DNA from: Verrucomicrobiota bacterium
GTDB lineage: Bacteria; Verrucomicrobiota; Verrucomicrobiia; Opitutales; UBA953
Direction of reading: 5' to 3'
NCBI GenBank assembly: GCA_016871415.1
Contig: VHDL01000017.1
Location: 1 to 43,292 of the forward strand
DNA: 43,292 bases
Shown here: piece after piece, positions 985-41,657 of the stretch
How positions within the stretch are numbered: position 1 is the first letter of the stretch
Layout: each line of letters opens with the position of its first letter
Notes under the pieces: generated by a model
Told to the model about the DNA's origin: nothing
Seen by the model: the letters and a program-made list of their open reading frames with translations, nothing else
The model's database searches: none
Program-made: the position numbers and the translations under genes

Positions 985-2424
985 TCACTTCTTTTTCTTG
1001 GCGTTCTTCTGGGCCTGCTTCTTGCGGCGGGCCGCGGCGGCCTCCGCGTCGGCGGCATCGAGCTTCTCCTTGGACGGAGGGGTCCACTCGGCCTTGGCGG
1101 GCTTGGCCACTTCGAGGGGGAAGGGGTCGGCGTAGGCCTTCATTTCGGAGACAAGCAGGGCGGTGAGGCGGCCTTGGACGGCGGCATGTTCCGTCCGCCC
1201 GGCGAGGTTGGTTAGTTCGTGCGGGTCCTTCTCCAGGTCGAAGAGCTGGGTGCGGTCGACCAGCGGATAGCGGATGAGCTTCCAGCGTCCGTCGCTCACG
1301 GAGCGCATGCAGTCGCGGTAGCCCAGGTAGGCCGCTTCGCGGACGCCCTTGCTTTCGCCGCGGATGACCGGCGAGAGGTCTCGGCCGTCGATGCCCTGCG
1401 GAGTCTTCGCTCCGGCGAGCGCGGCGAACGTCGGGAAGAGGTCCATCAGGTAGGCGAGGGCCAAGGTCGTGCCGTGGGGGATGCCGGGGCCTGCGATGAC
1501 GAGCGGGACGTGCATGCCGCCGCGCTCATAGAGGTTCTGCTTGCCGAAGAGCCCGTGCTCACCGAGCGAGAGTCCGTTGTCGCCGGAAAAGACGATGACG
1601 GTGTTGTCCCACTGTCCGGTCTCCTTCAGGGCGGCGAAGATCCGGCCGACGTGGTGGTCCAGTCCGGTCACGCAGGCGTGGTAGTCGGCGGTCTGCCTGC
1701 GGGTGTCCTCCTCCGTGCGCGGCCAGGGAGCGAGGCGCTCGTCGCGTACGGCCATCTCCCCGTTGTCCCACGGATGCAGCGGCATGAAGGCGGGCGAAAG
1801 CGTGATGCGGGCCGGGTCGTACATCGCGTGGAAGCGGGGTTCGGCCGAACGCGGGTCGTGCGGCACGGGCGGAGCCAGGTAGGCGTAGAACGGGGCGCCG
1901 TCCTTGCGGTCGGCGTGCTCCTTGAGGAAGGCGATCGTGCGGTCCGCCAGCCGCGAGCTCGCGTGGGCGCGGTCCGTGGCGGGGTTGTCCGCCGATCGGG
2001 CGTCGTCGATGACGCTCGTCTGGAAGGCGTTCAATCCTGCGGTGAAGGCGTTGCCCCCTTTGCCCATGTGCCAGGTGCGGTAGCCGGCCGCGGCGAGGAC
2101 GGAGGGCAGGAAGGTCGCCGGATCGGCGGCGTCAGGCAGGGCGGAGGGTGCCCCGGGGATGCGCTGCCAGGAGCGTCCGGTCAGCATCATCGTGCGGCTC
2201 GGGGTGCAGACCGCCCCGATCATGGAGCCCTGCGTGTAGGCGCGCGTGAAGGTCATGCCCCGCGCCACCAGGGAATCGAGGTTCGGCGTGATCAGTCCCT
2301 TGGTTCCCAGCGCGCCCAGGCCGTCGGGACGATGGTCATCGGCGTGGATGTGGAGGATGTTCGGCCGGGCCGCCGGCAGTTGCGCGGCGAGGCAGGCGGA
2401 GAGAAGCAGCAGGGGCCTGAGCAT
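985..2424 (-). CDS. Sulfatase with altered GKWH site
   Basis: Secreted formylglycine sulfatase of 479 aa with a signal peptide at about residues 1-19. The calcium-binding Asp pair is in HIHADDHRPDG (D29, D30), the modified Cys is C73 in C-T-P-S-R, and the second metal site is FSGDNG followed by GKQNLYERGG. The layout resembles iduronate/choline-type sulfatases and is closest in this window to the sulfatase at 26715-28127. The usual G-K-W-H is replaced by G-K-G-G-N (residues 121-125), so the Lys remains but the His is gone, which may alter substrate choice. The C-terminus is a Lys/Arg/Ala-rich tail ending NAKKKK. It starts 3 bases after the DUF1080 stop, so translation is probably coupled. Confidence 0.93.
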   Translation of the reverse strand: MLRPLLLLSACLAAQLPAARPNILHIHADDHRPDGLGALGTKGLITPNLDSLVARGMTFTRAYTQGSMIGAVCTPSRTMMLTGRSWQRIPGAPSALPDAADPATFLPSVLAAAGYRTWHMGKGGNAFTAGLNAFQTSVIDDARSADNPATDRAHASSRLADRTIAFLKEHADRKDGAPFYAYLAPPVPHDPRSAEPRFHAMYDPARITLSPAFMPLHPWDNGEMAVRDERLAPWPRTEEDTRRQTADYHACVTGLDHHVGRIFAALKETGQWDNTVIVFSGDNGLSLGEHGLFGKQNLYERGGMHVPLVIAGPGIPHGTTLALAYLMDLFPTFAALAGAKTPQGIDGRDLSPVIRGESKGVREAAYLGYRDCMRSVSDGRWKLIRYPLVDRTQLFDLEKDPHELTNLAGRTEHAAVQGRLTALLVSEMKAYADPFPLEVAKPAKAEWTPPSKEKLDAADAEAAAARRKKQAQKNAKKKK

Positions 2425-2427
2425 GGC

Positions 2428-3216
2428 TCACTTCTTGGCCGGGGCCTTCTTCTTGGGGGCGGGATTCTTGCCCTGGGCGCTGACGACCTTGGGCTTGTCG
2501 ATCTTCTTGGCGCCGGCGGGGAGGGCGGATTCGTCGAACTTGAGCACCGGTCCGTCGGCGAGGACCTTGAGCAGGACCTGCTTCACATAGGTCCTGTGCG
2601 GATTGCCGGCGTGGAGCTGGATGGCGACGAGGCCTTCAAGGGCGCGGTTCTTCTCATCATGGTCGATGAAGACCGAGGTCGTCCGGCCGTTCACCTTGTG
2701 CTCGAGACGGTTGCCGACGGCGATGACCGTGAACTCGTTGTATTGGGATATGTCAGCCTGCACGCGCGGGCGTTCGCCCACCTGCCAGCGCTGTCCGGTC
2801 GGGTCCATCACCACGTCGACGCCGTTGTAGCCGAAGATGCCGCGTCCGCGCTCCTCGTAGGTCATGGCCGTATGGACGTCGGTCGGATGGACGTCGCACT
2901 GGTAGCCGAGGATCGTCCACGGCGTCACTTCGGGCAGCCGGCGGCTGCGATACTGCACGCCGGAGTTGTTGTCGCCGACCACCTTGACCGTCGCGCGCAG
3001 TTCGAAGTCCTTCACCTTGCCGTTCCAGATGAGGAACGAATTGGTCTTCGGCTTGCCGATCTCGCTCGTGCCGACGATCACGCCGTCCTCGACGGCCCAG
3101 AGGCCCGGTTCGCCGTCCCAGCCGGAAAGGTCCTTGCCGTTGAAGAGCGGGGTGAATCCGTCCTGGGCGACGGCCGGGACGACGAGGGCGAGCAGGGCGA
3201 TGGGGAGCAGTTTCAT
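2428..3216 (-). CDS. DUF1080 (3-keto-disaccharide hydrolase/concanavalin-like) secreted protein
   Basis: 262-aa secreted protein. A signal peptide (about residues 1-17, ending AVA) precedes a single DUF1080 domain. Diagnostic motifs are FTPLFNGKDLSGWDGEPG near the N-terminus, then NSFLIW, NSGVQYRSR and the terminal strands around EGLVAIQLHAG. The fold is a concanavalin A-like sandwich. Some relatives hydrolyse 3-keto-disaccharides, but most PVC members are uncharacterised and could bind or cleave glycans. The last 30 or so residues are a Lys/Pro/Ala tail ending KKKAPAKK, like tails on nearby sulfatases. It is the first gene of a short run with two sulfatases and is preceded by 152 bases of non-coding DNA, so a promoter there is plausible. 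Confidence 0.9.
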   Translation of the reverse strand: MKLLPIALLALVVPAVAQDGFTPLFNGKDLSGWDGEPGLWAVEDGVIVGTSEIGKPKTNSFLIWNGKVKDFELRATVKVVGDNNSGVQYRSRRLPEVTPWTILGYQCDVHPTDVHTAMTYEERGRGIFGYNGVDVVMDPTGQRWQVGERPRVQADISQYNEFTVIAVGNRLEHKVNGRTTSVFIDHDEKNRALEGLVAIQLHAGNPHRTYVKQVLLKVLADGPVLKFDESALPAGAKKIDKPKVVSAQGKNPAPKKKAPAKK

Positions 3217-4314: not shown

Positions 4315-5106
4315 TCAGCCGGCGATCAGCCACACGGCAGCGAAGGCCGTCAGCCACGCCAGGGTCGTCTCGAAGGCGCGTTGCCCCGTGCGCCGGAGGA
4401 TCCACCAGCCGAGGGCGACTCCGGCCAGGACGCCCGGGAGCAGCACGGCGTTCGTGAGGAGGGACTTGGCGGTGACGAGCCCGACGTTGCCGCTGAAGGG
4501 CAGCTTGAAGAGGTTGATGAAGAGGAAGAATCGGCTGAACACACCCAGATGCTCGTTCTTCTCGAGCCGCTGGGAGAGCAGGTAGACGGTCATCACCGGA
4601 CCGGCGGCGTTGGCGAGCATGGTGGTGCAACCGGCCGTCCAGCCCATGCCCCAGGCGAAGGTACGGTGACGGGTGAGGGCGAGCAGCTGTTCCCGCCGGC
4701 GGTCCAGCACGACGTTGAACGCCAGGAGCGCGAGGATGAGCCAGCCGATGACGACGCGGGCCGTGGCGTTGTCGATGCGGTCGAGCAGCAGCCAGCCGAT
4801 GAGCACGCCGGCCACCGCCGGGGGCACCATGGGCCACACCCTGCGCCAGGAGCCTCCTCCGCGGTTGATCATGAATCCGAGGAAGTCGGCCACGATGAGC
4901 ATCGGCAGCACGACGCCGACCGAAGGCTTGGCCCCGAAGATCTTGGCCATGATGACCACGTTGAGCGTGGCGGTGCCGGCCAGTCCCGCCTTGGACATGC
5001 CGATGCATGCCGCCCCGACCAGGGCGATTAGTAGGATCCAGGGCTCGGCGGGGAGCAGGGTGTGATCGGTCAGCCAGGACATCGGTTCGGGGCCGGCCGC
5101 GGTCAC
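4315..5106 (-). CDS. TauE/SafE-family sulfite/anion permease
   Basis: Integral membrane protein of 263 aa with about seven or eight hydrophobic segments. It has the two-repeat TSUP layout: an N-terminal repeat with GMSKAGLAGTATLNVVIMAK and a second with GCTTMLANAAGPVMTVYLLS. Characterised relatives export or import sulfite, sulfoacetate or other sulfur/organic anions. A GTG start overlaps the TGA of the sulfatase upstream (GTGA, 4 bases), implying translational coupling; an ATG at 5082 is an alternative start. Its position between sulfatases suggests it removes sulfate- or sulfite-derived anions or imports a sulfonated product. That role is inference; transport of sulfate itself is not established for the family. 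Confidence 0.88.
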   Translation of the reverse strand: MTAAGPEPMSWLTDHTLLPAEPWILLIALVGAACIGMSKAGLAGTATLNVVIMAKIFGAKPSVGVVLPMLIVADFLGFMINRGGGSWRRVWPMVPPAVAGVLIGWLLLDRIDNATARVVIGWLILALLAFNVVLDRRREQLLALTRHRTFAWGMGWTAGCTTMLANAAGPVMTVYLLSQRLEKNEHLGVFSRFFLFINLFKLPFSGNVGLVTAKSLLTNAVLLPGVLAGVALGWWILRRTGQRAFETTLAWLTAFAAVWLIAG

Positions 5107-6647
5107 TTCTTCTGCGCCTTGCCCTTGGCCTTCGCCTTCGGAGTTTCCTCGCGGGGGAACCGCGTCACGACGACGTCGTTCTTCTGCTTCTCCCCGGGGG
5201 TGGAACGTCCGTCGGTGATGAGCTTCTCCAAGAGCGCCTTCATCTCGGCGAGTTTGTCCGGCATCGCGGCGGCGAGGTTCTTGGTCTCCCCGATGTCGGA
5301 GCCCAGGTCGTAGAGCTCAGGCAAGGGTTTGGCCACGTACTTCAGGTTTCCAAGCCGCAGTCCCGGGATGCCGGAGGACGCGCAGCTGATGGCGTGCGGG
5401 CGGACGGGTTCGGAGCCTCCGCGCAGCAGCGGGATCAGGCTGAAGCTGTCCTCGCCCGCGCCGGCGGGCAGTTTCTCGCCCAGGATTTCAGCGAGCGTCG
5501 CGATGAGGTCGGCCTGATGGACGAGCCGGTCGCAGGTCGAGCCCGCCTTCACCGTGCCGGGCCAGCGGACGATGAAGGGCACGCGATGTCCGCCCTCGTA
5601 GACCGACGTCTTGTAGTCGCGCAGGGGCCCGCTCGGAAAGTGACCCTGCTTCTCCAGGTCCTTCACGCCCACGTAGGAGGCGAATCCGTTGTCGCTGGTG
5701 AAGAGCACCAGCGTGTTCTCAGCGGCGCCTGACGCCTCCAGCGCGGCGAGCACGCGACCGACCGCGGCGTCGGTCTCCATGATGAGGTCCGCGGCTGCGT
5801 TGTTGAGTCCGCTCCTTCCTTTCCACGCCTCATTCACCGCCAGCGGCGTGTGCGGCGTCGTCAGCGGGAGATAGAGCAGGAACGGCCGGGGCTGCTTGGC
5901 GGACTCCGAGATGAACGCACAGGCGCGTTCGGTGAGCGCGGGCAGGATTCCTTCCAGCTTCCATTCGGGCAGCGCGGGGCCGGGAAGGCTGGCGAGATGG
6001 TTCCGGAAGAGCTCCTTCGGCAGGAAGACGCTCGGGGTGCCGACGGTGCGGTCGTTCTCAATGAAGCAGTAGGGCGGCCAGTTGGGGACGTCCGTCCCGA
6101 AGTAGGAGTCGAAGCCCCGCGTCGTCGGCCCGCCGGGGATGGGCTGCGAGAAGACCTTCGTCCAGGCGGCGCGGTGGCCGTCGGTGGCCGGGGCGGCGTC
6201 GGCTTCGCGGGTGCCGCGGAAGAGGCGGCCTTCGTCCTGCGAGATGGGCCAGTCCCACCCGAGGTGCCATTTGCCGACCGCCGCCGTGCGGTAGCCGTGC
6301 CGCTTGGCCAGTCCGGCCACGGTCAGTCGGTCCGGCGCGATGAGCGGCTCGCCGAAGACGCCCACGATGCCGTTCTGCAGACGGGTGCGCCAGTGATAGC
6401 GGCCGGTGAGCAGGGCGTAGCGCGAAGGGGAGCACACGCCGGATGACGAATGCCCGTCGGTGAAGCGCATCCCCTGGGAGGCGAGTCGGTCGAGGTTGGG
6501 CGTGGCGATCTTGCCGCGCTCGGGATTGTAGCAGCGCAGGTCTCCGTAGCCGAGGTCGTCGGCGAGGATGACGACCACGTTGGGCTTGTCGGCGGCGAAC
6601 ATGGCCGCGGCGCAGAGCAGGGCGGACAGCAGGGTGGGCGTTCTCAT
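5103..6647 (-). CDS. Arylsulfatase, formylglycine type
   Basis: 514-aa secreted sulfatase. The ATG at 6647 is preferred because it gives a clean signal peptide (about residues 1-19) and overlaps the TGA of the upstream gene as ATGA. Motifs are ILADDLGYGDLRCY (calcium Asp pair D30, D31), C72-S-P-S-R, VGKWHLGWDW and the distal metal site LFTSDNGFASYVG. The region GHSSSGVCSPSRYALLTGRY closely matches the sulfatase at 9882-11966, so the two are paralogous and resemble arylsulfatase A/GALNS-type enzymes. The C-terminus carries a Lys/Ala tail (KAKAKGKAQKK). It sits between the TPR-GT41 gene and the permease and overlaps both, so the three are very likely one translational unit. Confidence 0.94.
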   Translation of the reverse strand: MRTPTLLSALLCAAAMFAADKPNVVVILADDLGYGDLRCYNPERGKIATPNLDRLASQGMRFTDGHSSSGVCSPSRYALLTGRYHWRTRLQNGIVGVFGEPLIAPDRLTVAGLAKRHGYRTAAVGKWHLGWDWPISQDEGRLFRGTREADAAPATDGHRAAWTKVFSQPIPGGPTTRGFDSYFGTDVPNWPPYCFIENDRTVGTPSVFLPKELFRNHLASLPGPALPEWKLEGILPALTERACAFISESAKQPRPFLLYLPLTTPHTPLAVNEAWKGRSGLNNAAADLIMETDAAVGRVLAALEASGAAENTLVLFTSDNGFASYVGVKDLEKQGHFPSGPLRDYKTSVYEGGHRVPFIVRWPGTVKAGSTCDRLVHQADLIATLAEILGEKLPAGAGEDSFSLIPLLRGGSEPVRPHAISCASSGIPGLRLGNLKYVAKPLPELYDLGSDIGETKNLAAAMPDKLAEMKALLEKLITDGRSTPGEKQKNDVVVTRFPREETPKAKAKGKAQKK

Positions 6648-8626
6648 GGCTGGGAAGATCGGCACCATTCACGCCACATGCCGCGGTAGGCGGCCTCGAG
6701 GTCACGGGTGAAGGCGAGTATGTCGCAGAGCGGCGAGGCGGCCATCCGCGGCCGCAGGCCGCTGCGGATCTCGGCGAGCCGTCGCGGGTCCGTCGCCGTC
6801 GAGACCGCCTTGGCGACGTAGGCCTCCTCGTCACGCACCGCGAAGTCGGCCAGTCCGACGTTCGTGAGGAGGCTGAGCGCGCCCCGGCCGAGGCTGCGTC
6901 CCGTCACGAGGCTCACCACCGGGACGCCCATCCAGAGGGCGTCCATGGTCGTGGTCATCCCGTTGAAGGGCGAGGTGTCCAGGGCGACGTCGACCCGCAG
7001 GTAGCGGGCGAGCAGGGCGGCCTGCTTCACGTCCTCGGTGGGCGGAAGGTAGTCGAGGAACTCGACGCGGTCGGCGGCCACCCCGTTGCGCTCCATCAGC
7101 TCCTTGGTGCGTCGGTGATGGGCTCCGGCCTTGGCGAGGAGCAGCAGTCTTGAACCGGGGGTCGCCTTGAGGATGCGCGCCCAGAGGTCCAGCGTGCGGT
7201 CGCTGATCTTGCAGAAATTGTTGAACGACGCGAAGGTCGGCCGGCCCAGGCTGAGCATGGGAGGCGGTCCCGGGTCCGGCGCGTCCGCCGCGGGTTGGAC
7301 GCAGGTCCAGCAATGGGGCAGGGTCCACGCTCTCTCGTGCGGCGCGAGGCCGTTGGGCTCCGCCGGTTCGAGAAGCCGGTCGCTGATGCGCCACCCTATG
7401 CCTTCCACGCCCGACGTCTCGGGCAGGCCCAGCCAGGAAGCCTGGACGGGAGCCGGGCGGCGGGCGAAGAGCGCCAGGCGGTTGTCCGAGGTGTGCAGGC
7501 CGAGGTCGACGAGCACGTCGATGCGGTCCTCGCGCACCTGTCGCTCGAGCGCGTCCTCGGAGAGCGTCTCGATGATCCGCCAGGCGTCGGCCCGTGAACG
7601 GAACTTCTCCGTGACGGCGTCGGGGGTGCCGACGGCGTAGGCGAACACTTCGAACTTCTCCCGGTCATGGGCGAGGAAGGCCGGTAGCAGCGCCCTGCCC
7701 ACCACGTGGTCGCGGAAATCGGCTGAGACGTAGCCGATGCGCAGCCTGCGTTCCGGGTCGCGGTCGTTGGGCCAGGGTGCGGGCGGTCTTTTCGCGCCGT
7801 GACGGACGTTCCAGTCACGGTGGGCCTCGGCCAGCTCGGCGTCGGTGACCTCCGGGACGTAGTGCATCGTCAGGATGAGGTTGCTGCTGATGTCCGCCGA
7901 TGCCGGGCGCAGAGTCGTGCAGCGTCGCAGCAGCCGCACGGCCTCGGCTCCGTCACCGCGGTCCTTCAGGGCCACGGCGAGGTTGTTGAGCGACGTGGCG
8001 TCGTCGGGCATCAGTTCGGCGGCCTTGCGGAAGGCGTCGATGGCGCCGTCGAGGTCGCTCTCCGACTGCAGCAGGGCGCCGTAGTTCACCCAGATGGCGT
8101 AGTCCTTGGGCCGCCTGTCCAACACCCCGCGATAATGGGCGAGGGCCTCCTTGCGCCGGCCGCCCCCGTGCAGCGCCATGCCGAGCTGGAGGTCGCAGAG
8201 GTCGAAGTCCGGTTGGAGCGCGAGGGCGGCGCGGTAAGCCTCGACCGCCTCCGCCCATTTCCGCTGACGGTAAAGGGCGTTCCCGAGGTTGTATCGGGTG
8301 GACGGACAGTCGGGAGAGCGCTCCGCGCCCTGTCTCAACACCTGCTCGGCCTTGGCCAGGTCGCCCTTGTCGATCAGGCGGGATCCGAAGTTGTTGTAGT
8401 AATGGCCGGCTCCGGGATTGGCGGCCAGGGCCTCCTCCATCAGCCGGACGCCCTCCTCGCGTCGTCCGAGGTCGAACTGCGCCAGTCCAAGCAGATGCCT
8501 GACGTCATGGCTGTCGGGACTCAGGCGCAGGATTTCGACGTACAGTCCCTCCGCTTCGGCGGGACGGCCGGAGCGATGAAGGTTCATTGCGTGGTTGAGC
8601 GCGGACTGCAGGTCGGGGAACTGCAC
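6644..8626 (-). CDS. TPR-repeat SPINDLY/O-GlcNAc-transferase-like protein (GT41)
   Basis: 660-aa protein with no signal peptide, so probably cytoplasmic. Residues about 8-245 form a run of TPR helices. Residues about 293-650 match the GT41 (OGT/SPINDLY) catalytic region: RIGYVSADFRDH with H307 at the conserved catalytic-His position, PVQASWLGLPETSG, FASFNNFCKIS with K473 at the UDP-contacting Lys, and DTSPFNGMTTTMDALWMGVP. Family members transfer GlcNAc or fucose to Ser/Thr of proteins, and many bacterial members are unassigned. The usual G-H-T motif reads L-H-T here. The GTG start at 8626 is weakly supported; an internal ATG at residue 14 is possible. It is followed by a 4-base overlap with a sulfatase, an unusual partner for a cytoplasmic enzyme. 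Confidence 0.9.
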   Translation of the reverse strand: MQFPDLQSALNHAMNLHRSGRPAEAEGLYVEILRLSPDSHDVRHLLGLAQFDLGRREEGVRLMEEALAANPGAGHYYNNFGSRLIDKGDLAKAEQVLRQGAERSPDCPSTRYNLGNALYRQRKWAEAVEAYRAALALQPDFDLCDLQLGMALHGGGRRKEALAHYRGVLDRRPKDYAIWVNYGALLQSESDLDGAIDAFRKAAELMPDDATSLNNLAVALKDRGDGAEAVRLLRRCTTLRPASADISSNLILTMHYVPEVTDAELAEAHRDWNVRHGAKRPPAPWPNDRDPERRLRIGYVSADFRDHVVGRALLPAFLAHDREKFEVFAYAVGTPDAVTEKFRSRADAWRIIETLSEDALERQVREDRIDVLVDLGLHTSDNRLALFARRPAPVQASWLGLPETSGVEGIGWRISDRLLEPAEPNGLAPHERAWTLPHCWTCVQPAADAPDPGPPPMLSLGRPTFASFNNFCKISDRTLDLWARILKATPGSRLLLLAKAGAHHRRTKELMERNGVAADRVEFLDYLPPTEDVKQAALLARYLRVDVALDTSPFNGMTTTMDALWMGVPVVSLVTGRSLGRGALSLLTNVGLADFAVRDEEAYVAKAVSTATDPRRLAEIRSGLRPRMAASPLCDILAFTRDLEAAYRGMWREWCRSSQP

Positions 8627-11970: not shown

Positions 11971-13476
11971 TCATTTCCCTTCCGCGGCCCACTTCTTCAT
12001 CTGGGCGATGTTGCGTTCGACCTCGGGGTTGCCCTTGGCGACGTAGACTTTCATGTCGCTGTCATACATGGCCTCCGATTCGGGCGCGGGATCCTTGGTG
12101 GCGGCAAGTTTGGCGTCCAGGCGTCGGCGATGTTCCTCGAGGACGGCCGCATGGGCCGGGTCGCCGGCCAGGTTACGGGTCTGCCAGGGGTCCGAGGCCA
12201 GTTCATAGAGCTCCTCGCGAGGGCGGGTGGGGCTGAAGAGCAGTTTTTCGGAGAGCTCGGACAGGGAGCCGGAGGCGTGCAGCTCGCGCAGGCGCTGGAC
12301 GATCTGCTTGCCGTCCTTGTAGGCGCAGGGCTGCAGGTGGGGGCGTTCCGGGTGATAGTTACGGACGTAGATGAACTTGTCCGTGCGCAGGCTGCGTATC
12401 TTCTCCGTGGTCTCGTCGCATCGGTCGCGGGCCGAGAAGGCCTCTTCGCGCTTCACATAGGTCGGCGCGAGCACGTCCTTGCCCTGCATCCAGTTTGGGA
12501 CGCCCAGGCCGGCGGCGGCGAGCGAGACGGCCGCGAGGTCGATGTGCTCGACGACGTCCGACCGGACCTGGCCGGCGGCGACGCCGGGGCCGCGGATGAC
12601 GAGCGGCACGTGCGCGCCTTCCTCGTAGAGGAACTGTTTGCCGCGGGCATGGCTGATGCCGTGGTCGGTCATGAAGATGACCAGGGTGCTCCCGAGCAGT
12701 CCTTCTTTCTCAAGTCTGGCGAGCACACGTCCGACGTGGAGGTCGGTCAGGCGGACGGCGTCGAGGTAGTCGGCCCAGTCCTGCAGGAGGACGGGGTCGC
12801 GCGGATAGTAGGGCGGCAGGCTGACTTTGGCGGGTTCGGTGCCCGCCCCGAGCTCACGTTTCACGCGCTCGCGGAACTGGGCGCGGGCGGCGTCCGTTCC
12901 CTCGCGCAGTTTGCCGCCATGCAGTTGCACCTGCATGAAGAACGGCTGGTCCGCCTTGCGGCCGGCCCAGTCATGCGAGTCGTAGATGGCGGGGTCCCAC
13001 TCGAAGTTGTAGTCGGTCTTGCCGAGCCGGCCTGCGGCCGAGGTCTTGGCCTTCTTGCCCTTGGGCTGGCCGAAGGGGAGTCCGCGGAAGTCCAGGTCGG
13101 GCAGGCCGCTGCCGATGCAGGTGTAGTAGCCGGCGTTCTGGAAGAGCTTGGGCGTCGGCACGACCTCGGCGGGCAGGCGGATCTTGAGTTCGCCCCGGCC
13201 GCTGCGGTGGTGGTGCGCTCCGATCGTCGTCTGGTACATGCCCGTGACGAGGGCGGATCGGCAGGGGGAGCAGACCGGCGCGGTCACGTAGGCGCGGCTG
13301 AAGCGCGTGCCCTCGCGGGCGAGTCGGTCGACGTTCGGGGTGGCGACGGTCTTCTCGCCGTAGCAGCCGAAGTTGGCCGACATGTCGTCCACGATGAACC
13401 ACAGCACGTTGGGCCGGTCGGCGGCCGCGGCCGTGACGGCGAAGAACAAGACCAGCAGGTGTCGCATATTGCGCAT
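11971..13476 (-). CDS. Heparan N-sulfatase (SGSH)-like sulfatase with CSPCR active site
   Basis: 501-aa secreted sulfatase starting at ATG 13476; residue 4 is an alternative Met. The signal peptide is about residues 1-19. The calcium Asp pair is in WFIVDDMSANFGCYG (D30, D31). The active site is C69-S-P-C72-R followed by SALVTGMYQTTIGAHHHRSG, typical of N-sulfoglucosamine sulfohydrolase-like enzymes. GKTDYNFEWDP and the distal site FMTDHGISHARGK agree, with His replacing Asn as in that group. Position 4 of the signature is Cys rather than Ser or Thr, which is unusual. N- or O-sulfated hexosamine is a likely but unproven substrate. It follows a palindromic repeat (13484-13515) and starts the run 13476 to 8677. 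Confidence 0.93.
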   Translation of the reverse strand: MRNMRHLLVLFFAVTAAAADRPNVLWFIVDDMSANFGCYGEKTVATPNVDRLAREGTRFSRAYVTAPVCSPCRSALVTGMYQTTIGAHHHRSGRGELKIRLPAEVVPTPKLFQNAGYYTCIGSGLPDLDFRGLPFGQPKGKKAKTSAAGRLGKTDYNFEWDPAIYDSHDWAGRKADQPFFMQVQLHGGKLREGTDAARAQFRERVKRELGAGTEPAKVSLPPYYPRDPVLLQDWADYLDAVRLTDLHVGRVLARLEKEGLLGSTLVIFMTDHGISHARGKQFLYEEGAHVPLVIRGPGVAAGQVRSDVVEHIDLAAVSLAAAGLGVPNWMQGKDVLAPTYVKREEAFSARDRCDETTEKIRSLRTDKFIYVRNYHPERPHLQPCAYKDGKQIVQRLRELHASGSLSELSEKLLFSPTRPREELYELASDPWQTRNLAGDPAHAAVLEEHRRRLDAKLAATKDPAPESEAMYDSDMKVYVAKGNPEVERNIAQMKKWAAEGK

Positions 13477-28128: not shown

Positions 28129-30033
28129 TCAGAAGGTCCAGCGGCGGGGCTCACCCTGATGCGGGGTGAGGACGATGTCGTCGAACTCCACGGCGGGCGA
28201 CCCGCTCGGCAGGTAAAGCCTGAGGATGCCGGCCTTCTCCTTCAGGGGCAGCTCGACGCTGATGTCCTGCCAGACGGATTCGCCGGAGACTTTGTAGGGC
28301 ACGCTGAGCGATTCAGGCGTCCCCGTCCCGTTGAGCAGCGTCACGCGGCCTTCGCCGGCCTGCGGGGCGCGGATGCGGAAGGTGAGCCGGGCGGTGCCCG
28401 CGTTGAGGCCGGCTCCGACGCCCAGGAAGGAGTCGGCTCCCTTGGACTGCACCCGGAGGGCTCCGTCTTGCACGGACGCCGATCCGGCGCGGTTCTTCCA
28501 GCCGCCGGGAAGGTCGTCCGCCGCGACGGCCTTCTTCTTCGGCGCGGCCTTGGCTTTCGCCGCCGTCGCGCCCTTGGCGCGCTCGCCGTTGTAGCGGGGG
28601 ATGACGGCCTCGTTGTCCGCCAGGTAGAGCTGGATGAGGTCGTTGAGCTCCGCGGCCTCGGCGGCGCGCTCCTTGGCGAGGTTGTTCCTTTCGCCGGGAT
28701 CCTTGGACAGGTCGTAGAGCTCCAGCTCATCGGAACCGTCATCGGCGCGTCCGTAGAAACGGATCAGCTTCAGGTCACCCTGGCGGACGTAGGAGCCGGC
28801 GTAGAAGCCGTCCATGACGGAGTCGCGCGTGGCGTTGCCGTGCGGGAAGTGGCAGAAGATCCGCTGGCGGACCGCGGGACCGCCCTGAAGGGCCTTCGTC
28901 TGGTCGAAGCCGTCGATTTTCTGTCCGGGCTTGGTCACGCCTCCGGCGACGTTGATGAGGGTGGGGTAGAGGTCGGTCGACTGGATGAGGAAGTCCGCGG
29001 TGGTGCCGGCCTTGACCTTGCCGGGCCAGACGACGATGCCGGGCTCGCGCGTGCCGCCGTCATAGAGGGAGGCCTTGCCGCTGCGGTAAGGCAGGTTGCT
29101 GGTGGCGGGAATGTCCGCGTAGCCCTTGGGGTCGGTCTGCTTGGGCGGGTAGGCGAAGCCGCCGTTGTCCGACCAGAAGACGACGATGGTGTTGTCGGCC
29201 TCGCCGGATTCGTCGAGCTGCCTGAGCAGTCGCCCCACGGCGTCATCCATGCTCTTCACCATCGCCGCGTAGAGCGGGTTTTTCTGCGGATTGGCCGGGT
29301 CGGTCTTCTTCTTGAAGTACTCGATGTAGTCGGGGCGCGCGTTCCACGGGGAGTGCACGGAGAACAGCCAGAAGTTCACGAAGAAGGGTCGGCCCTTGCT
29401 GGCCCGAATGAACTTACCCGCCTCGTCCGCCATGCGCTCGTCGACGTGGCGGCCCGCCTCGTCCTTGATCGCGGGGTCGGTGATGAACTGCCAGGGCGCG
29501 AGGTAGCCGCCGCCCGGACCGGGAGCCTTGGGCGTGTGCGGCCAGTCGAAGTCGAAGCCCTGGTCGCGCGGCTCGTAGGCGTCGCCCGCCGCCCTGTTGT
29601 GGCCGAGGTGCCATTTTCCAAAATGGGCGGTGGCGTAACCCGCGGCCTTGAGCGCCTCGGCCAGCGTGTGGTAGTCGGGCTTCAGACGAGTGACCGAATT
29701 GGCCACCTGCACGCGCGCGTCATTCTTGAGCAGCAACTTTTCAAGCACCACGGTGGGCAGGTGGCAGGCGGGCGCGGTGATGCCGGTGCGTGCGGGATGC
29801 TGGCCGACGAGGATGCTCGAACGGGTCGGGGAGCAGAGCGGGCTGGCCGAATAGGCGTTGGTCAGGCGCACGCCCCGGGAGGCGAGGCGGTCGAGATTGG
29901 GCGTCTCGTGGTAGGTGCTGCCGAAGCAGGCGAGGTCGCGCACGCCGAGGTCATCGGCGAGGATGAGCACGACGTTGGGACGGTCGGCGGCGAGCGCCGC
30001 GAGCGGCGCGAGGAGGGCGGGGAGGATGCGCAT
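28129..30033 (-). CDS. Sulfatase with C-terminal carbohydrate-binding-like domain
   Basis: 634-aa secreted sulfatase. The reading frame stays open far upstream, but the ATG at 30033 is chosen because it begins the signal peptide (MRILPALLAPLAALAA). Motifs are ILADDLGVRDLACFG (D27, D28), C67-S-P-T-R, a 40-residue insert, FGKWHLGHN and FWSDNGGFAYPP. After about residue 490 comes a Lys/Ala linker (AKAKAAPKKKAVA), then a beta-sandwich of roughly 125 residues (ARLTFRIRAPQAGEG to AVEFDDIVLTP) that resembles a carbohydrate-binding or lectin-like module. It starts 11 bases after the stop of the upstream sulfatase. The reaction is desulfation; the substrate is unknown. Confidence 0.93.
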   Translation of the reverse strand: MRILPALLAPLAALAADRPNVVLILADDLGVRDLACFGSTYHETPNLDRLASRGVRLTNAYSASPLCSPTRSSILVGQHPARTGITAPACHLPTVVLEKLLLKNDARVQVANSVTRLKPDYHTLAEALKAAGYATAHFGKWHLGHNRAAGDAYEPRDQGFDFDWPHTPKAPGPGGGYLAPWQFITDPAIKDEAGRHVDERMADEAGKFIRASKGRPFFVNFWLFSVHSPWNARPDYIEYFKKKTDPANPQKNPLYAAMVKSMDDAVGRLLRQLDESGEADNTIVVFWSDNGGFAYPPKQTDPKGYADIPATSNLPYRSGKASLYDGGTREPGIVVWPGKVKAGTTADFLIQSTDLYPTLINVAGGVTKPGQKIDGFDQTKALQGGPAVRQRIFCHFPHGNATRDSVMDGFYAGSYVRQGDLKLIRFYGRADDGSDELELYDLSKDPGERNNLAKERAAEAAELNDLIQLYLADNEAVIPRYNGERAKGATAAKAKAAPKKKAVAADDLPGGWKNRAGSASVQDGALRVQSKGADSFLGVGAGLNAGTARLTFRIRAPQAGEGRVTLLNGTGTPESLSVPYKVSGESVWQDISVELPLKEKAGILRLYLPSGSPAVEFDDIVLTPHQGEPRRWTF

Positions 30034-30044
30034 GGGAAAGGGGG

Positions 30045-31391
30045 TCACTTGGCGGCCTTCTTCTTGGCCTTCTTCTTGGCGGTGGCGGCAGGGTCTTCCT
30101 TCAGATTGCCGTCGTTCCAACGACGGTCGACCCACCGTGGCGGCTGGTTGCCGGCGTTCCAGGAGTCCCAGAGGGCTTGCAGGGCCTTGACGCGATCGGG
30201 TTCGGATGCGGCGAGATCCTTCTGCTCCTCGCGGTCCGTCTTCAGGTTGAACAGCTGCACGGGCCTTTCCAGTCCGGCCTTCACCAGCTTCCAGTCTCCC
30301 TGACGCACCGCGTACTGAACGCCGAAGCGCCAGAAGAGTGCGTCGCGTCCCGCCGTGGGGGATTTGCCTTCCAGGAGCGGCAGGAGGTTGACCCCGTCGA
30401 GCTTCCATTCGGGACGGGTCTCGGCGCCCGCCGCGGCCAGCGCCGTGGGAAGCACGTCGAGCTGGATGACGGGCTCGGCCAGCGTGCGTCCGGCGGGAAT
30501 GCGTCCCTTCCACTGGGCCATCCAGCTCACGCGGATGCCCCCTTCCCAGAGCAGCCACTTCCTGCCGCGCAGTCCGCCCATCTCGGCCAGGGGGCTCGCT
30601 CCGCCGTTGTCACTGATCACGAAGACGAGCGTGTCCTCCTCGAGCTTCAGCTCCCGCAGCTTGGCCAGCATGGTGCCGACCGCGTCGTCCATCTCGGACG
30701 TCAGGGCGGCGTAGGCCTGCTCGCGCCTGAGCAGCGAGGCGAAGCGCGCGAGGACGTGCTCGCTGGCCACGACGGGGCTGTGCACGGCGTTGAGGGGCAC
30801 GTAGGCGAACCAAGGGCGGTCCTTGTTGCGTTCGATGAAGCCGGCGGCCTCCTTCGCGAAGATGGGCGACGTGACGGGGGCGCCGGGCGGATCGGGGATC
30901 AGTTCCTTGCCGCGGTAGAATCCGCCTTTTTCACCCAGGTTGCCGACCGTTCCGAATGATTCGTCGAAGCCACGTCCCACGGGCAGGTAGGCCTCGGAGG
31001 ACGATCCGACGTGCCACTTGCCGAAGATGCCGGTCACGTAGCCGGCGGACTTGAGCCGTTGGGCGATGGTGGTCTCGGAGAGCAGCAGGTTCTTGGAGTC
31101 GGAATCGGCGCCTTCGTTGGAATTGGCGTCATGCCCGGTGCGCGCCTGATAGCGTCCGGTCAGGAGTCCGACCCGGCTGGGCGAGCAGATGCAGCCCGAG
31201 ACGTAGCCGTCGGTGAAGCGCACGCCGTTCGCGGCGATTGAGTCGAGGTTCGGCGTGGGGGCCAGTTTGCCGCCGTAACAGCCGGGCTGGGCCCAGCTCA
31301 TGTCGTCGACGTAGATGACGAGGACGTTGGGCTGGCGGGCCAAGGCGGCCGCGAAGGCAGTCAGCAGGAAGAGAATGGGAGGAAGGCGCAT
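30045..31391 (-). CDS. Sulfatase with Lys/Ala-rich C-terminal tail
   Basis: 448-aa secreted sulfatase with a signal peptide at about residues 1-18. Motifs are IYVDDMSWAQPGCYGG (D29, D30), GCIC69-S-P-S-R, FGKWHVGSS and FVISDNGGASPLAEMGGLRG. The protein ends in a basic tail (AATAKKKAKKKAAK) that is not part of the fold. It is the first gene of a four-sulfatase run (31391 to 24946) preceded by 171 non-coding bases with a possible promoter. No Shine-Dalgarno sequence is evident. The arylsulfatase A-like layout gives no firm substrate. Confidence 0.93.
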   Translation of the reverse strand: MRLPPILFLLTAFAAALARQPNVLVIYVDDMSWAQPGCYGGKLAPTPNLDSIAANGVRFTDGYVSGCICSPSRVGLLTGRYQARTGHDANSNEGADSDSKNLLLSETTIAQRLKSAGYVTGIFGKWHVGSSSEAYLPVGRGFDESFGTVGNLGEKGGFYRGKELIPDPPGAPVTSPIFAKEAAGFIERNKDRPWFAYVPLNAVHSPVVASEHVLARFASLLRREQAYAALTSEMDDAVGTMLAKLRELKLEEDTLVFVISDNGGASPLAEMGGLRGRKWLLWEGGIRVSWMAQWKGRIPAGRTLAEPVIQLDVLPTALAAAGAETRPEWKLDGVNLLPLLEGKSPTAGRDALFWRFGVQYAVRQGDWKLVKAGLERPVQLFNLKTDREEQKDLAASEPDRVKALQALWDSWNAGNQPPRWVDRRWNDGNLKEDPAATAKKKAKKKAAK

Positions 31392-37548: not shown

Positions 37549-39035
37549 TTGGCGAGGGTGCCTTGCGTGAGACCGTAGCTTTGCTCCCACCAAGCCAGTC
37601 GTTCCGCGTCGGTGGGCTCAGGTTTGCCTAGTCGCTTGGTCCAGGAACGGCGGTAGTCCTGGCGTTTGGCTTGCTGGATCTCGGCCAGACTGGGTTCGGT
37701 CGTGGGGTCGCCGCTTAGGCCTTGGTCTTGGGATGTCTCGCTCCAGGCCGTCAAAGCGGCGCTTTGCCGGCGGATGGTTTCGGCGTTCGCCGGGTCGGCG
37801 GAGACATCGTGGACCCCTGATGCGTCGGCCTTGAGGTCGTATAACTCAAACTCCGGACGCTGTGGCGCGAGCCAGCGGGCGGGAAAGGGTTCGAGTTTGC
37901 CGGTCGCTTGCAGGACGCGGAGCAGAGGCATCCCCGGATAACTATCTTCCTTGTAGCTGGACCAATTGAGACGCGAGACCGAGGTCAGGTGGTTGCGGAC
38001 GAGCAGGGTGTCGGCGCCGATGAGGGCCCGGATGCGGTCCATGGCGTCGCCGCATCGGTCGCGGGCGGCGAAGAGGTGCGGTCGGTCGGCGGGTACGCCT
38101 TGCAGTACCGGGCGACCCTCCATCCAGCCTGGAACCGGCTGACTGGCCGCCTTGAGCACGGAGGGGGCGAGGTCGATGAGGCTGACCAAGCCCGTCTCTA
38201 GGCTGCGAGGCGTCACGCCGGGTCCGCGGATCAGCAGAGGAACCTGCAAGCCTTCGACGCTCAGCCATTGTTTGCCCCAAGGCATCGGACGTCCGTGGTC
38301 GGCGAAGAACATCACCAAGGTATTCTGCAGGACCCCTTCGGCTTCCAGCTGCGCGAGGATGGCGCCGACGCGTTGGTCGACGACCTCGACGCTCCGTTCA
38401 TACGCATACCAGTCGCGGCGGGTCAGCGGGTGTTCGGGATAATTCGGCGGGAGCTTGATGGCCGCCAGGGCGGCCTCGTCGTATCGCGCGGGAATCGGGA
38501 AGGGCCGGTGCGGTTCCGTGATCTGGAACTGGGCGAAGAAGGGCTGGCCGGGCCGACGCTTCCGCCAGTCATCCCCGTCGAACAGGACCTTGGGGTCGTG
38601 GGCGAAGTTGTAATGGGTCTTGCCCTTGGTGATGGCGCGGCCGCCACGCTGGCTGCCGGGTGCGGCGCAGTTGGTGACAAACCAACCCGCCTCGCGGAGG
38701 AGGGTGGGCAGCGGTTTGTAGGGAGCCGGGAGCGGCTGCGGGTTCTCGGTGTCGTGCGGGTGCAGCCCGGTCGTCGTCTGGTAGCATCCGAGGATGAACG
38801 CCGAACGCGACGAGCTGCAGACCGGAGCGGTGGCGTAGGCTCGAGCGTAGCGTCGTCCCTCGGCCGCCAGGCGGTCGAGGTGGGGCGTCTTCACGCCGGG
38901 AGCCCCGTAGGCCGCGATGTCGGGCGACATGTCGTCGGCGATGATCCAGACGACGTTGGGCTGCGGAGACTCGGCCGCGAGCGCGCCGGGCGCACTCGCC
39001 CAGAGGAGGGCGGCGATGGCGAGCAGCCGGATCAT
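37545..39035 (-). CDS. SGSH-like sulfatase with CSSSR active site
   Basis: 496-aa secreted sulfatase with a signal peptide at about residues 1-21. Motifs are WIIADDMSPDIAAYG (D34, D35), ATAPVC73-S-S75-S-R followed by SAFILGCYQTTTGLHPHD, GKTHYNFAHDP and the distal site FFADHGRPMPWGK, all of the N-sulfoglucosamine sulfohydrolase-like group. Ser replaces the Pro of C-x-P-x-R, so formylglycine formation must tolerate this change or the enzyme is inactive. It overlaps the genes on both sides (ATGA at each end), linking it to an esterase upstream and a lectin-like lipoprotein downstream. It is distantly related to the sulfatase at 11971-13476. Confidence 0.92.
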   Translation of the reverse strand: MIRLLAIAALLWASAPGALAAESPQPNVVWIIADDMSPDIAAYGAPGVKTPHLDRLAAEGRRYARAYATAPVCSSSRSAFILGCYQTTTGLHPHDTENPQPLPAPYKPLPTLLREAGWFVTNCAAPGSQRGGRAITKGKTHYNFAHDPKVLFDGDDWRKRRPGQPFFAQFQITEPHRPFPIPARYDEAALAAIKLPPNYPEHPLTRRDWYAYERSVEVVDQRVGAILAQLEAEGVLQNTLVMFFADHGRPMPWGKQWLSVEGLQVPLLIRGPGVTPRSLETGLVSLIDLAPSVLKAASQPVPGWMEGRPVLQGVPADRPHLFAARDRCGDAMDRIRALIGADTLLVRNHLTSVSRLNWSSYKEDSYPGMPLLRVLQATGKLEPFPARWLAPQRPEFELYDLKADASGVHDVSADPANAETIRRQSAALTAWSETSQDQGLSGDPTTEPSLAEIQQAKRQDYRRSWTKRLGKPEPTDAERLAWWEQSYGLTQGTLAK

Positions 39036-40003
39036 TTCGCGGGCTTCAGCTTCGCGAGCAGGAAGTCCGTCGGCGTGGCGTGCTTCGGGTTGGCGAGCCC
39101 CCGATAATGCAACTCGGCGGAGACGCCTTTCGTCGCGCAGTGTTCGGCGAGTTTGGCGCCGAAGTTCGCGGTGTGCGTGGGGTCCTTCTGGTTTTGGCCG
39201 ATGGCGGGCGGGGCGCCGAAGGTCATGTACACCGCGGGGTCATCGGAGGATACCAGCGCATACGGTGAATACTCGGCGATCAGGGGCAAGATGGACTCTC
39301 GTCCGGCGAGGAACTCCTCGAACGTCTTGAAGCCGAAGGCGTGGCCGCCGTAGTTGCTGTTGGGCGTCCACGCCTTCATCTGCGCCGGATCGAGGGTGGT
39401 CTGCGGGCCGGTCACGGCCGCGCAGGTCAGGCGGGTGGATTCGCGGGCGACCGGGTCAGCCGACTTCGGGTCGGCGAGGTCGTCATGGAAGGCCAGCCAG
39501 AGGCTGGAGCAGGCTCCGGCCGAACCGCCGGCGGCGCCGACGCGGCTCTTGTCGAGGTTCCACTCGGCGGCCTTGCTGCGCACGAATTGCAGGGCGCGGG
39601 CGGCGTCGTGTAAGGGCGCCTTTACGGCCGGCGAGGTGTCGGTCGCGGGGTCGCGTTTGATGAGGCGGTAGTTGATGGAGACGACCGAGACGCCGGCTTT
39701 GAGCAGGGCGGCGACGTCGGCGAACTTCTCGGCGCGCTCCTTGCTGCCGCCGACCCAGCCGCCGCCGTGGATGATGAAGACGAGGGGCGTCGGCGTCGCG
39801 GATTCCGCCTTCCAGAAGTCGAGCACGTGTCGCTCATGGTCGCCATAACGGACGCCGGCATGGGTCGGCTTGGGCAGCGAGGCCGAATACGCGTCGGCCT
39901 TGGGGGCGGCCTTAGCCTTCTTGGCCGGGGCTTTCGTCTTGGGTGCTTCCTGAGCGCCGAGCATGGCGCCGGCGAGGAGGGTGAGGAGGGTGAGCAATCG
40001 CAT
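39032..40003 (-). CDS. Secreted alpha/beta-hydrolase esterase (HSL/BD-FAE-like)
   Basis: 323-aa secreted esterase. The ATG at 40003 starts the signal peptide (MRLLTLLTLLAGAMLGA); the frame is open upstream but lacks a better start. A Lys/Ala/Pro stretch (residues about 20-36) follows the signal, then the hydrolase: oxyanion motif HGGGW (79-83), nucleophile G-G-S161-A-G-A, an Asp near 254 (SSDDPAVYMTFG) and a later His. The pattern fits hormone-sensitive-lipase and BD-FAE feruloyl-esterase-type enzymes, so it may remove acyl or acetyl groups from the glycan. It starts 10 bases after the upstream sulfatase and overlaps the downstream one. Confidence 0.86.
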   Translation of the reverse strand: MRLLTLLTLLAGAMLGAQEAPKTKAPAKKAKAAPKADAYSASLPKPTHAGVRYGDHERHVLDFWKAESATPTPLVFIIHGGGWVGGSKERAEKFADVAALLKAGVSVVSINYRLIKRDPATDTSPAVKAPLHDAARALQFVRSKAAEWNLDKSRVGAAGGSAGACSSLWLAFHDDLADPKSADPVARESTRLTCAAVTGPQTTLDPAQMKAWTPNSNYGGHAFGFKTFEEFLAGRESILPLIAEYSPYALVSSDDPAVYMTFGAPPAIGQNQKDPTHTANFGAKLAEHCATKGVSAELHYRGLANPKHATPTDFLLAKLKPAK

Positions 40004-40013
40004 GAGGAAGGTC

Positions 40014-41657
40014 TCAGTTGCCGGCGCGGACGAACTCTTCCTTGGAGAGGCGTCCGTCCTTATCTTTATCGAAACGAACGAAGCGCGCCGGGGCGTCGGC
40101 CTGGTCGCCCATGTGCGGGATGAATTCGTCTTTCGCGAGGTAGCCGTCCTTGTCCTTGTCCCAGCCGTCGAAGATCTTCGGGCGGTCGAGGGTCTTCTTG
40201 GCCTTGGCGGGTGCTGACTTAGCCGTCCCCTTGGATTGTCCGTTGGCGATGAACTTGTCACGGGCGGGGCTTGGGGGCAGGGTCTTGGCCCAGGCGAGGG
40301 TTTTTGCGGTCAGAGTCCTGACGACTTCCGGATTCTGCGCGGCGACGTCATGGTGTTCGCCGGGATCCTTGGGGATGTCGAAGAGCTGGGCGTTCTTGCC
40401 AGCGTGGTCGACGAACAGCTTCCAGTCGCCGTCTCTGACGCAGAGGGGCGGGGGCTGGTAGCCGTCTTGGGGGCCTTGGACGCCGGAGATCCATTCCCAG
40501 TAAAGCGGGGCCCGGCGTGGCGTGGCGGCGCCTCCCAGCCACAGGGCCGAGCGGTCTTCGCCGTCGGAGGCGAGGTTGGCCGGAACTTTCACGCCGGCGA
40601 GGGCGGCGATCGTAGGCAGGAAATCGACGCCACCGACGACGGCCTTCTCTTCCACGCGGCCGGCGGGCACCTTGCCCGGCCAGCGGACGAGACCGAAGGT
40701 GCGGACGCCGCCTTCGTGCATGCTGCGCTTACGGGCGCGGAGGGGGCCGGCGCTGCCGACGCCGGCATTGGCGGCGTTGCCGATGCGATAGTCTTCCGGG
40801 CCGTTGTCGCTGGAGAAGAAGATCAGCGTGTCGTTGGTCAGCCCGAGCTCGTCGAGCGAGTCCAGCAGGCGGCCGATCTGCGTGTCGAGGTCGGTGAGCG
40901 AGGCGCAGAACACCTGCATCTGCGAGCGGAGGTCCTTGGCGTTGGCGTAATACTTTCGGGTCCATTCGCCGAAGGCGGGGTCATCGGCCTTGGGCTGCAG
41001 TTCGGCGTAGACGGCGAGCTGTTCCGGCGTCGGCTTCAGGGCGGCGTGCGGGACGAGGGTCCAGAGGTTGACGTAGAAGGGCCTGTCCTTGTTGGCCTTG
41101 GCGAAGCGAATCGTCTCGTCGACCATCAAGGCAGTGGAGCGGGCGCGGAAGTAGGGTTCCTTGCCTTCGTCACCGAGCGGCGTGCCGTTGGAGTTCTGGG
41201 TCTTCGATGCGTCGATGCCGTAGGCCTCGGGGGCCGGGGCGTCCTTGCCGTTGCCAAGATGCCACTTGCCGAAGTGCGCGGTGGCGTAGCCGGCCTGCTT
41301 CAGGAGGTCGGGCAGGGTGGTGACCTCCGGGTCGAGCCAGTCCGGCATCGAACGGGCGGCGTTCTGAGCATGCTCCGCGAAATGGCCGTGAATCTGATGA
41401 CGGGCCGGGTAATGGGAAGTCATGAAGGCCGTGCGGCTGGGGGAGCAGACCGTGGCCGCCACGTAGAACTGGCGCAGCCACGTGCCTTCCTTGGCCAGGC
41501 GGTCCAGATTCGGCGTCTTCACATAAGGATGTCCGGCGAACTTCGCGTCACCCCAGCCTTGGTCGTCGGTGAGGATGAAGATCACGTTCGGCTGCCGTGC
41601 GGCGGCGGACAACGTGATGAGCAGGAGGGCCAGCAATCCGGATAAGGGCGGCGTCAT
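40014..41657 (-). CDS. Sulfatase with C-terminal EF-hand pair
   Basis: 547-aa secreted sulfatase. The ATG at 41657 begins the signal peptide (about residues 1-20); a TTG further upstream would only add a hydrophilic extension. Motifs are ILTDDQGWGDAKFAGH (D31, D32), FYVAATVC71-S-P-S-R, then TAFMTSHYPARHQIHGHF, FGKWHLGNG and FSSDNGPEDY. After a Lys/Ala linker (SAPAKAKKTL) come two EF-hand loops, DKDKDGYLAKDE (500-511) and DKDKDGRLSKEE (530-541). The EF-hands may give calcium-dependent stability or docking, as in dockerin-like modules. A 35-base gap separates it from the frameshifted esterase upstream. Confidence 0.93.
   Translation of the reverse strand: MTPPLSGLLALLLITLSAAARQPNVIFILTDDQGWGDAKFAGHPYVKTPNLDRLAKEGTWLRQFYVAATVCSPSRTAFMTSHYPARHQIHGHFAEHAQNAARSMPDWLDPEVTTLPDLLKQAGYATAHFGKWHLGNGKDAPAPEAYGIDASKTQNSNGTPLGDEGKEPYFRARSTALMVDETIRFAKANKDRPFYVNLWTLVPHAALKPTPEQLAVYAELQPKADDPAFGEWTRKYYANAKDLRSQMQVFCASLTDLDTQIGRLLDSLDELGLTNDTLIFFSSDNGPEDYRIGNAANAGVGSAGPLRARKRSMHEGGVRTFGLVRWPGKVPAGRVEEKAVVGGVDFLPTIAALAGVKVPANLASDGEDRSALWLGGAATPRRAPLYWEWISGVQGPQDGYQPPPLCVRDGDWKLFVDHAGKNAQLFDIPKDPGEHHDVAAQNPEVVRTLTAKTLAWAKTLPPSPARDKFIANGQSKGTAKSAPAKAKKTLDRPKIFDGWDKDKDGYLAKDEFIPHMGDQADAPARFVRFDKDKDGRLSKEEFVRAGN

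Follow-up and report, generated by a model that had tools for sequence, protein, structure and literature searches.

Why should enzymes that leave the cell carry short runs of lysine, alanine and proline? The question is raised by a 43,292-nucleotide stretch of DNA, hereafter the window, which is contig C17 of a 2.21-Mb genome of 60 contigs. Pfam profile matches to the sulfatase family PF00884 number 43 in this genome. The closest loci in named genomes reside in MAGs labelled as Verrucomicrobiota, Opitutae or Opitutales, and several isolates bear lake names. The original prediction had pointed to basic stretches at four C-termini, in two linkers and behind one signal peptide, and had placed them outside the catalytic folds. 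All seven were read in the translations, and all seven lie outside Pfam matches. The C-terminal stretches and the proteins that carry them are the following.

985..2424, minus strand, predicted sulfatase 985 (PF00884 and SGSH_C), 479 aa, with signal peptide
988..1056, minus strand, lysine-rich C-terminal tail of 985 (aa 457–479), ARRKKQAQKNAKKKK, read in translation
2428..3216, minus strand, exported protein 2428 of the DUF1080 / 3-keto-disaccharide hydrolase family (PF06439), 262 aa
2431..2526, minus strand, lysine-rich tail of 2428 (aa 231–262), KNPAPKKKAPAKK, with a conserved PKVVSAQGK core
5103..6668, minus strand, predicted sulfatase 5103 (Pfam), 521 aa
5106..5165, minus strand, K/A/P tail of 5103 (aa 502–521), PKAKAKGKAQKK, read in translation
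30045..31391, minus strand, predicted sulfatase 30045 (Pfam), 448 aa
30048..30116, minus strand, K/A tail of 30045 (aa 426–448), ATAKKKAKKKAAK, read in translation

Sulfatases are marked by the active-site signature (C/S)xPxR. Residues 73–77 of 985 read CTPSR, and C, P, S and R do not vary in an alignment of 29 rows. The protein matches PF00884 over profile positions 1–301 with 155.8 bits, above the curated cut-off; 5103, 28129, 30045, 40014 and 9882 match the same profile over positions 1–300 or 1–301. The SGSH_C match of 985 stops at residue 426 of 479, which leaves the tail outside the Pfam domains. AlphaFold2 models the tail as a helix that spans aa 452–478 with block pLDDT values of 77–86, a prediction not to be trusted for an Ala/Lys run.

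Comparable stretches are found at internal positions, in two linkers, behind a signal peptide and, beyond the seven of the original prediction, within a catalytic domain. For 28129, 39032 and 40014, translation probably begins at a point inside the listed ORF.

28129..30048, minus strand, predicted sulfatase 28129, carrying an additional C-terminal region, 639 aa when counted from the chosen start
28516..28593, minus strand, K/A/P linker in 28129 between the sulfatase and the C-terminal region, AKGATAAKAKAAPKKKAVA, from the translation
40014..41657, minus strand, predicted sulfatase 40014 with a C-terminal EF-hand pair (Pfam)
40170..40256, minus strand, K/A/P linker in 40014 ahead of the EF-hands, KGTAKSAPAKAKK, from the translation
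39032..40003, minus strand, exported esterase-like alpha/beta hydrolase (BD-FAE) 39032, 323 aa from the signal-peptide start
39893..39949, minus strand, K/A/P stretch of 39032 right behind the signal peptide, EAPKTKAPAKKAKAAPKA, from the translation
13003..13077, minus strand, lysine-rich insert in the catalytic domain of sulfatase 11971 (aa 134–158)

These internal stretches are conserved to different degrees. The linker of 40014 is basic in all 7 orthologues inspected, and the stretch of 39032 in all 9 close orthologues (82–100% identical), the window being counted in both sets. The linker of 28129 is mostly devoid of lysines in the two orthologues (60–61% identical) in which it was inspected. 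The insert of 11971 occurs also in the relative L274:10187, and is missing from the paralogue 37545.

Frequencies were measured in two samples, one made by 40 stretches of 20 kb from the same genome plus the window, the other by 40 stretches taken from five species in the same genus. Genes were called by an own script using a hexamer model, and signal-peptide, Tat, lipoprotein and membrane classes were assigned by own heuristic scripts. A protein was scored as tailed when its final 20 residues include at least 5 lysines and have a net charge of at least +4. Tail, low-complexity, shuffle and last-residue counts cover proteins of at least 120 aa (at least 100 aa in E. coli).

Tails are specific to exported proteins and enriched on sulfatases. 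When secretome and cytoplasm were counted against each other, as the original prediction had proposed, frequencies turned out not to be equal, which supports the proposed retention by charge in part and does not refute it: in the two samples together tails were found in 20/45 sulfatases, 12/297 other exported proteins and 4/737 cytoplasmic proteins (sulfatase versus cytoplasmic, P = 1e-23; sulfatase versus other exported, P = 2.5e-12). Tails are about eleven times as frequent in sulfatases as in other exported proteins. The claim that many secreted enzymes carry them holds for sulfatases, many of which are tailed, but few other exported proteins are. The own-genome sample contributed 8/24 sulfatases, 7/166 other exported, 3/365 cytoplasmic and 0/103 membrane proteins, the five relatives 12/21, 5/131, 1/372 and 0/92, respectively. 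Among 18 further sulfatases of the own genome, fetched on purpose, 5 are tailed, which brings this genome to 13 of 42 scored; 40 of these 42 share at most 53% identity with any other. Overall, the share of tailed sulfatases in the genus lies between one quarter and one half. In the window alone, 3/13 sulfatases passed the test, as did 1/11 exported proteins of other kinds. Shuffling of the mature sequences gave 0.3 expected tails in 63 sulfatases, a set including the 18 fetched on purpose, against 25 observed; 2.5 were expected among other exported proteins (12/301 observed) and 1.6 among cytoplasmic proteins (4/754 observed). By eye, some of the 12 ends scored on exported non-sulfatases of the genus do not resemble tails; that of L024:4785, for one, has the look of an ordinary charged helix.

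Lysine-rich low-complexity stretches, searched anywhere in the protein, occur in 31/63 sulfatases, 24/297 other exported, 17/737 cytoplasmic and 5/195 membrane proteins. They reside at the C-terminus, in linkers, behind the signal peptide and inside a loop; 23 of the 33 stretches of the 63 sulfatases are C-terminal. A third sample comprised 79 loci of named genomes, drawn using the 985 protein, and is therefore a biased set. In its loci of at least 60% GC tails occur in 37/113 sulfatases, 11/136 other exported and 1/156 cytoplasmic proteins; the 11 tailed non-sulfatases among the exported ones all belong, as 2428 does, to the DUF1080 family. In loci below 60% GC the figures are 5/50, 0/79 and 2/131, and exported and cytoplasmic proteins do not differ significantly (P = 0.28). 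A heparin-binding-like pattern, an own regular expression of the XBBXBX / XBBBXXBX type that makes a weak and composition-driven test, was found at the C-termini of 15/63 sulfatases, 10/301 other exported, 40/754 cytoplasmic and 9/197 membrane proteins.

What is conserved in the tails is mostly the charge. Net tail charge stays mostly between +4 and +8 across orthologues, while sequence and length drift. The 985 tail is present in 10/10 genus orthologues (window counted), with charge but not letters conserved; it measures +5 to +6 in 14/15 orthologues, the remaining one being a broken copy. The 5103 tail passes the threshold in 11/13 genus orthologues (window counted) and measures +4 to +6 in 13/15, the other two having lost charge, down to +1. 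The 30045 tail is kept in the 3/3 orthologues (window counted) that were found flanking 17 loci, and the tail of the C45 sulfatase (L129) measures +4 to +8 in 12/12 orthologues. In 2428 the tail measures +6 to +8 in 11/11 orthologues, and here a sequence motif is also fixed: the PKVVSAQGK core is present in all 11 aligned rows used for the charge comparison, and in 17/17 complete orthologues (20 loci, 2 of which are cut by contig ends and 1 holds a paralogue).

The 24 tailed sulfatases have a mean body charge of –1.2, which becomes +4.4 with the tail included; the 36 untailed ones average +0.4 for the body and +2.2 with the end included. Body charges of the two groups show no clear difference (P = 0.065). 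Avoidance of lysine-to-acid changes was considered as a proof of selection and discarded, because lysine-majority columns behave alike in tails (4/53 changes) and bodies (12/213).

In a wide set of 985 family members from Verrucomicrobiota, Planctomycetota and others, the end following the last tryptophan has a net positive charge in 63 of the 72 scorable loci (7 of the 79 could not be scored), is neutral in 6 and negative in 3; the negative ends belong to one broken copy and to two proteins stopping before the tail. By comparison, 62% of the remaining exported proteins encoded at these loci have a positive charge over their last 15 residues. In relatives at about 40% identity the ends are often merely short and weakly basic, and lysine-rich ends mark single family members elsewhere, as L187 and L212. 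Among best-scoring, rather than randomly drawn, PF00884 loci, tails were found in 7/29 sulfatases for the genus, represented by nine species (G001 and G004 among them are shared with the five-species sample), in 3/34 for the rest of the order, represented by seven further genera, with all three in the single genome G110, and in 0/48 from elsewhere in the phylum, a set that includes several close copies out of one genus. On these best-scoring loci, the idea that sulfatases are tailed throughout the phylum was rejected. Tails cluster in this lineage and occur outside it in scattered family members. The lineage itself appears to be a sulfatase-rich, Opitutae-like genus of open water.

What the stretches do may be approached from their distribution. 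Since they concentrate on sulfatases, and since ends, linkers, a loop and the region behind a signal peptide can all carry them, electrostatic tethering would be the best reading of these 15–30 residue elements. Tails and linkers would act as electrostatic tethers by which exported enzymes stay attached to polyanions. These would most likely be the sulfated glycans being desulfated, or the anionic envelope or exopolymer of the cell itself. Tethering would raise the local concentration of the enzyme and limit its loss to open water. That short polycationic appendages, selected for charge and not for sequence, tether exported sulfatases and a few other proteins in this way has about an even chance of being correct. 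If so, the tails would provide open-water bacteria with a simple modular means to keep exported enzymes near the substrate or the cell, and would work as a tag transferable between enzymes. Tailed non-sulfatases speak against tethering, as they include one redoxin-family protein and two proteins of the DUF7133/cytochrome c type, for which a sulfated substrate is not required. Other points against it are the limited share of sulfatases that are tailed, the charge lost by two relatives of 5103, the lysines lost from the 28129 linker, the lysine-to-acid changes that are as common in tails as in bodies, the lack of a clear difference in body charge, and the part of the C-terminal lysine signal that is due to a preference at the last residue.

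Two animal systems may serve as working parallels, no membership being claimed. The hydrophilic domain of human Sulf-1/Sulf-2 is reported as essential for recognition of heparan sulfate and for cell-surface localisation, and dispensable for small substrates (PMC3890690). Like this domain, the stretches described here are basic, non-catalytic regions on predicted extracellular sulfatases, the loop insert of 11971 excepted. The Sulf domain lies centrally in an endosulfatase and has two or more heparan sulfate-binding sites according to the same source (PMC3890690), whereas the bacterial elements, putative binders, are tails, linkers and inserts of 15–30 residues, mostly C-terminal, which lack a common sequence. 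SOD3 (EC-SOD) similarly has a C-terminal polyanion-binding region described as governing distribution in the extracellular matrix (PMC12774472), but it is an animal enzyme of another fold, and the region is cleavable (PMC12774472). No description of lysine-rich or charged tails on bacterial sulfatases was found in titles and abstract openings of the papers that searches of the open-licence literature listed; one of these papers concerns a cell-wall-anchored LPMO (PMC10067821). Freshwater Verrucomicrobia MAGs from lakes were reported by He et al. 2017 to carry many pfam00884 genes near CBM and planctomycete-type cytochrome genes (PMC5615132); the main text of that paper uses neither 'lysine' nor 'signal peptide' as a term.

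Other explanations have to account for the same distribution. Ala/Pro/Lys could be the generic flexible or solubilising spacer of the lineage, with no ligand to bind. Alike stretches do connect domains in 28129 and 40014, and 2428 and 985 form a single open frame in four genomes (G011, G019, G020, G022), where the lysine-rich tail has become an interdomain linker and the signal peptide of the sulfatase is lost or shortened. Terminal tails connect nothing, however, and neither their excess on sulfatases over other exported proteins nor their mostly conserved charge is expected of a spacer, which makes this explanation quite unlikely. The fusion also bears on a role of the tails as docking peptides for partner proteins in cell-surface enzyme complexes. 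The G011 junction differs from that of the other three genomes, so that the fusion probably arose twice, as judged from the junction sequences; the joining of a DUF1080 protein to a sulfatase with differing junctions, and the fixed core of the 2428 tail, would both suit docking. Against it, no comparable fixed motif is found in the other tails, and L154, a more distant relative of 2428, lacks the core; docking is very unlikely.

The tails might also be nothing but neutral low-complexity drift or replication slippage, or serve at the DNA level as part of the ribosome-binding site of the next gene. They are indeed repetitive and evolve fast. Yet tails are nearly missing from cytoplasmic genes, even from those with a tight downstream neighbour (2/278), and lysine codons are normal. 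Runs of A, slippage and base composition were rejected as a source, because lysine accounts for 4–6% of residues in both cytoplasmic and exported proteins, GC content in the window is 64–70%, and AAG has its usual share of lysine codons (113/124 in tails, 9698/10765 elsewhere). An origin from ribosome-binding sites or operon coupling was likewise rejected: sulfatase tails occur independently of a tight downstream gene (8/21 with tight, 7/11 with loose and 4/11 with convergent neighbours), and cytoplasmic operon genes are nearly without them. Drift or a DNA-level role is accordingly highly improbable.

The very last residue obeys a second preference, for Lys or Arg, which runs through the whole secretome and reaches beyond sulfatases. 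Last-residue counts in the genus and in the named loci were made after exclusion of tailed proteins. Tail-less exported proteins, sulfatases included, end in K in 28% and in R in 27% of cases, and in A/G/S/T/C/V in 25/310; cytoplasmic proteins end in K in 5%, in R in 13–14% and in a small residue of the same group in 337/737 (small residues, P = 3.5e-36). The lysine peak is confined to the last position (28% at –1, 8% at –2), also in non-sulfatases (27% and 9%; cytoplasmic 5%). In a strict set of signal-peptide-I proteins K/R account for 86/147 and small residues for 5/147, beside 134/733 and 336/733 in the cytoplasmic set; with one protein per homology cluster, the strict set still gives 63/108 and 3/108. 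The rule is obeyed less by lipoproteins (small 6/52), and proteins with a Tat-like motif are outside it (small 6/12). In the named loci small residues end 3/106 signal-peptide-I and 103/284 cytoplasmic proteins. The trend has the same direction in all six sampled genomes of the genus, numbers being small in two. Part of the C-terminal lysine signal belongs to this secretome-wide rule.

A lysine enrichment at protein ends is not new. Weber et al. 2020 describe Lys and Arg as enriched at –1 in bacteria (Lys 2.3-fold), show that Lys raises protein levels, and propose degradation as the mechanism (PMC7246954). That bias is general and, when the final 10 positions are taken together, more pronounced in membrane proteins than in those of the cytoplasm, whereas the rule found here separates Sec-exported from cytoplasmic proteins; the word 'secreted' is absent from the main text of their paper (PMC7246954). 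The universal bias was discarded as the cause, being too weak in the cytoplasmic proteins of the genus (K 5% at –1 versus 4% in bulk, R 13–14% versus 8%). In the high-GC part of the named loci, however, 14% of cytoplasmic proteins end in lysine. The last-residue rule is possibly more novel than polycationic tethers, which are of a known kind.

In Sec clients, the last residue looks like a sign that the C-terminus is being protected or subjected to quality control. A small last residue is the finer preference of the periplasmic protease Prc. A terminal lysine might be a cap that shields Sec-exported proteins from Prc/Tsp, and the poly-lysine tails an exaggerated cap. The avoidance of small last residues in the strict set, the peak at –1 only and the exemption of Tat-like proteins are all consistent with a cap, and so is the presence of one S41 (PF03572) match per genome in 13/13 genomes of the genus; in the G000 copy, the one in which the full set was established, a protein of 736 aa combines TSP_NTD, PDZ, Peptidase_S41 and DUF3340. 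Prc is reported to prefer nonpolar C-termini, but its substrates MltG, MepS and PBP3 do not end in nonpolar residues according to the same source (PMC7481392). Moreover, a cap covers one residue, and not a charge spread over 15–25 residues, linkers, a post-signal stretch or a loop insert. Prc is present in E. coli too, but the rule is absent from a 450-kb sample of K-12, a small one containing misclassified proteins (small last residue in 11/56 exported and 54/197 cytoplasmic proteins; in the strict signal-peptide set, of small size, small 4/20 and K/R 5/20, with K/R in 53/197 cytoplasmic proteins). As an explanation of the tails the cap is unlikely. A combination of cap and tether is possible, though on the doubtful side: a C-terminal code of the Sec proteome (K/R about 59%, A/G/S/T/C/V 3%, cytoplasmic and Tat-like proteins exempt) may be set before folding by a periplasmic reader, Prc/Tsp, and the terminal lysine of sulfatases may have been extended into charge-conserved tails that also anchor on sulfated glycans.

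The last-residue rule predicts what a periplasmic protease tolerates at protein ends, and provides a sequence-only marker for exported proteins of this lineage. Several exported proteins that depart from it look misclassified by eye (CarB, E2, MurQ, CoaE, Tat-like proteins and lipoproteins), and such misclassification would weaken the rule rather than create it.

Lys or Arg is a frequent last residue of Sec-exported proteins at the sample loci, genus-wide, and small last residues (A, G, S, T, C or V) are avoided, a tendency that cytoplasmic proteins at the same loci do not share. The tail-specific protease Prc/Tsp, a candidate reader of exported C-termini, is encoded with its full domain set in the genus genome G000, and S41 matches number one per genome in all 13 genomes searched.
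L363:913-3123, minus strand, Prc/Tsp protease (G000)

The Lys-rich tail of the exported DUF1080 protein 2428 (window 2431-2526) features a PKVVSAQGK core, strictly conserved among close orthologues; other tails lack a core so conserved. DUF1080 and sulfatase genes, orthologues of window 985-3216, are joined in a single frame in four species (L035, L042, L044 and L045), with junctions of two kinds, and the internal signal peptide is lost or shortened in the fusions. Sulfatase 11971 carries a Lys-rich insert in its catalytic domain, missing in the paralogue 37545.
Window 13003-13077, Lys-rich insert of sulfatase 11971

Adjoining small exported proteins rich in Lys, Gly and Pro are encoded at L054:6335-7477 and L269:13204-16141; the five scanned gave no Pfam match. 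One window protein fuses two domains, of which the ATPase domain is sugar-kinase-like and the SIS domain GKRP/MurQ-type.
Window 18358-20139, BadF/BadG-type ATPase domain and SIS domain of GKRP/MurQ type, fused in one protein
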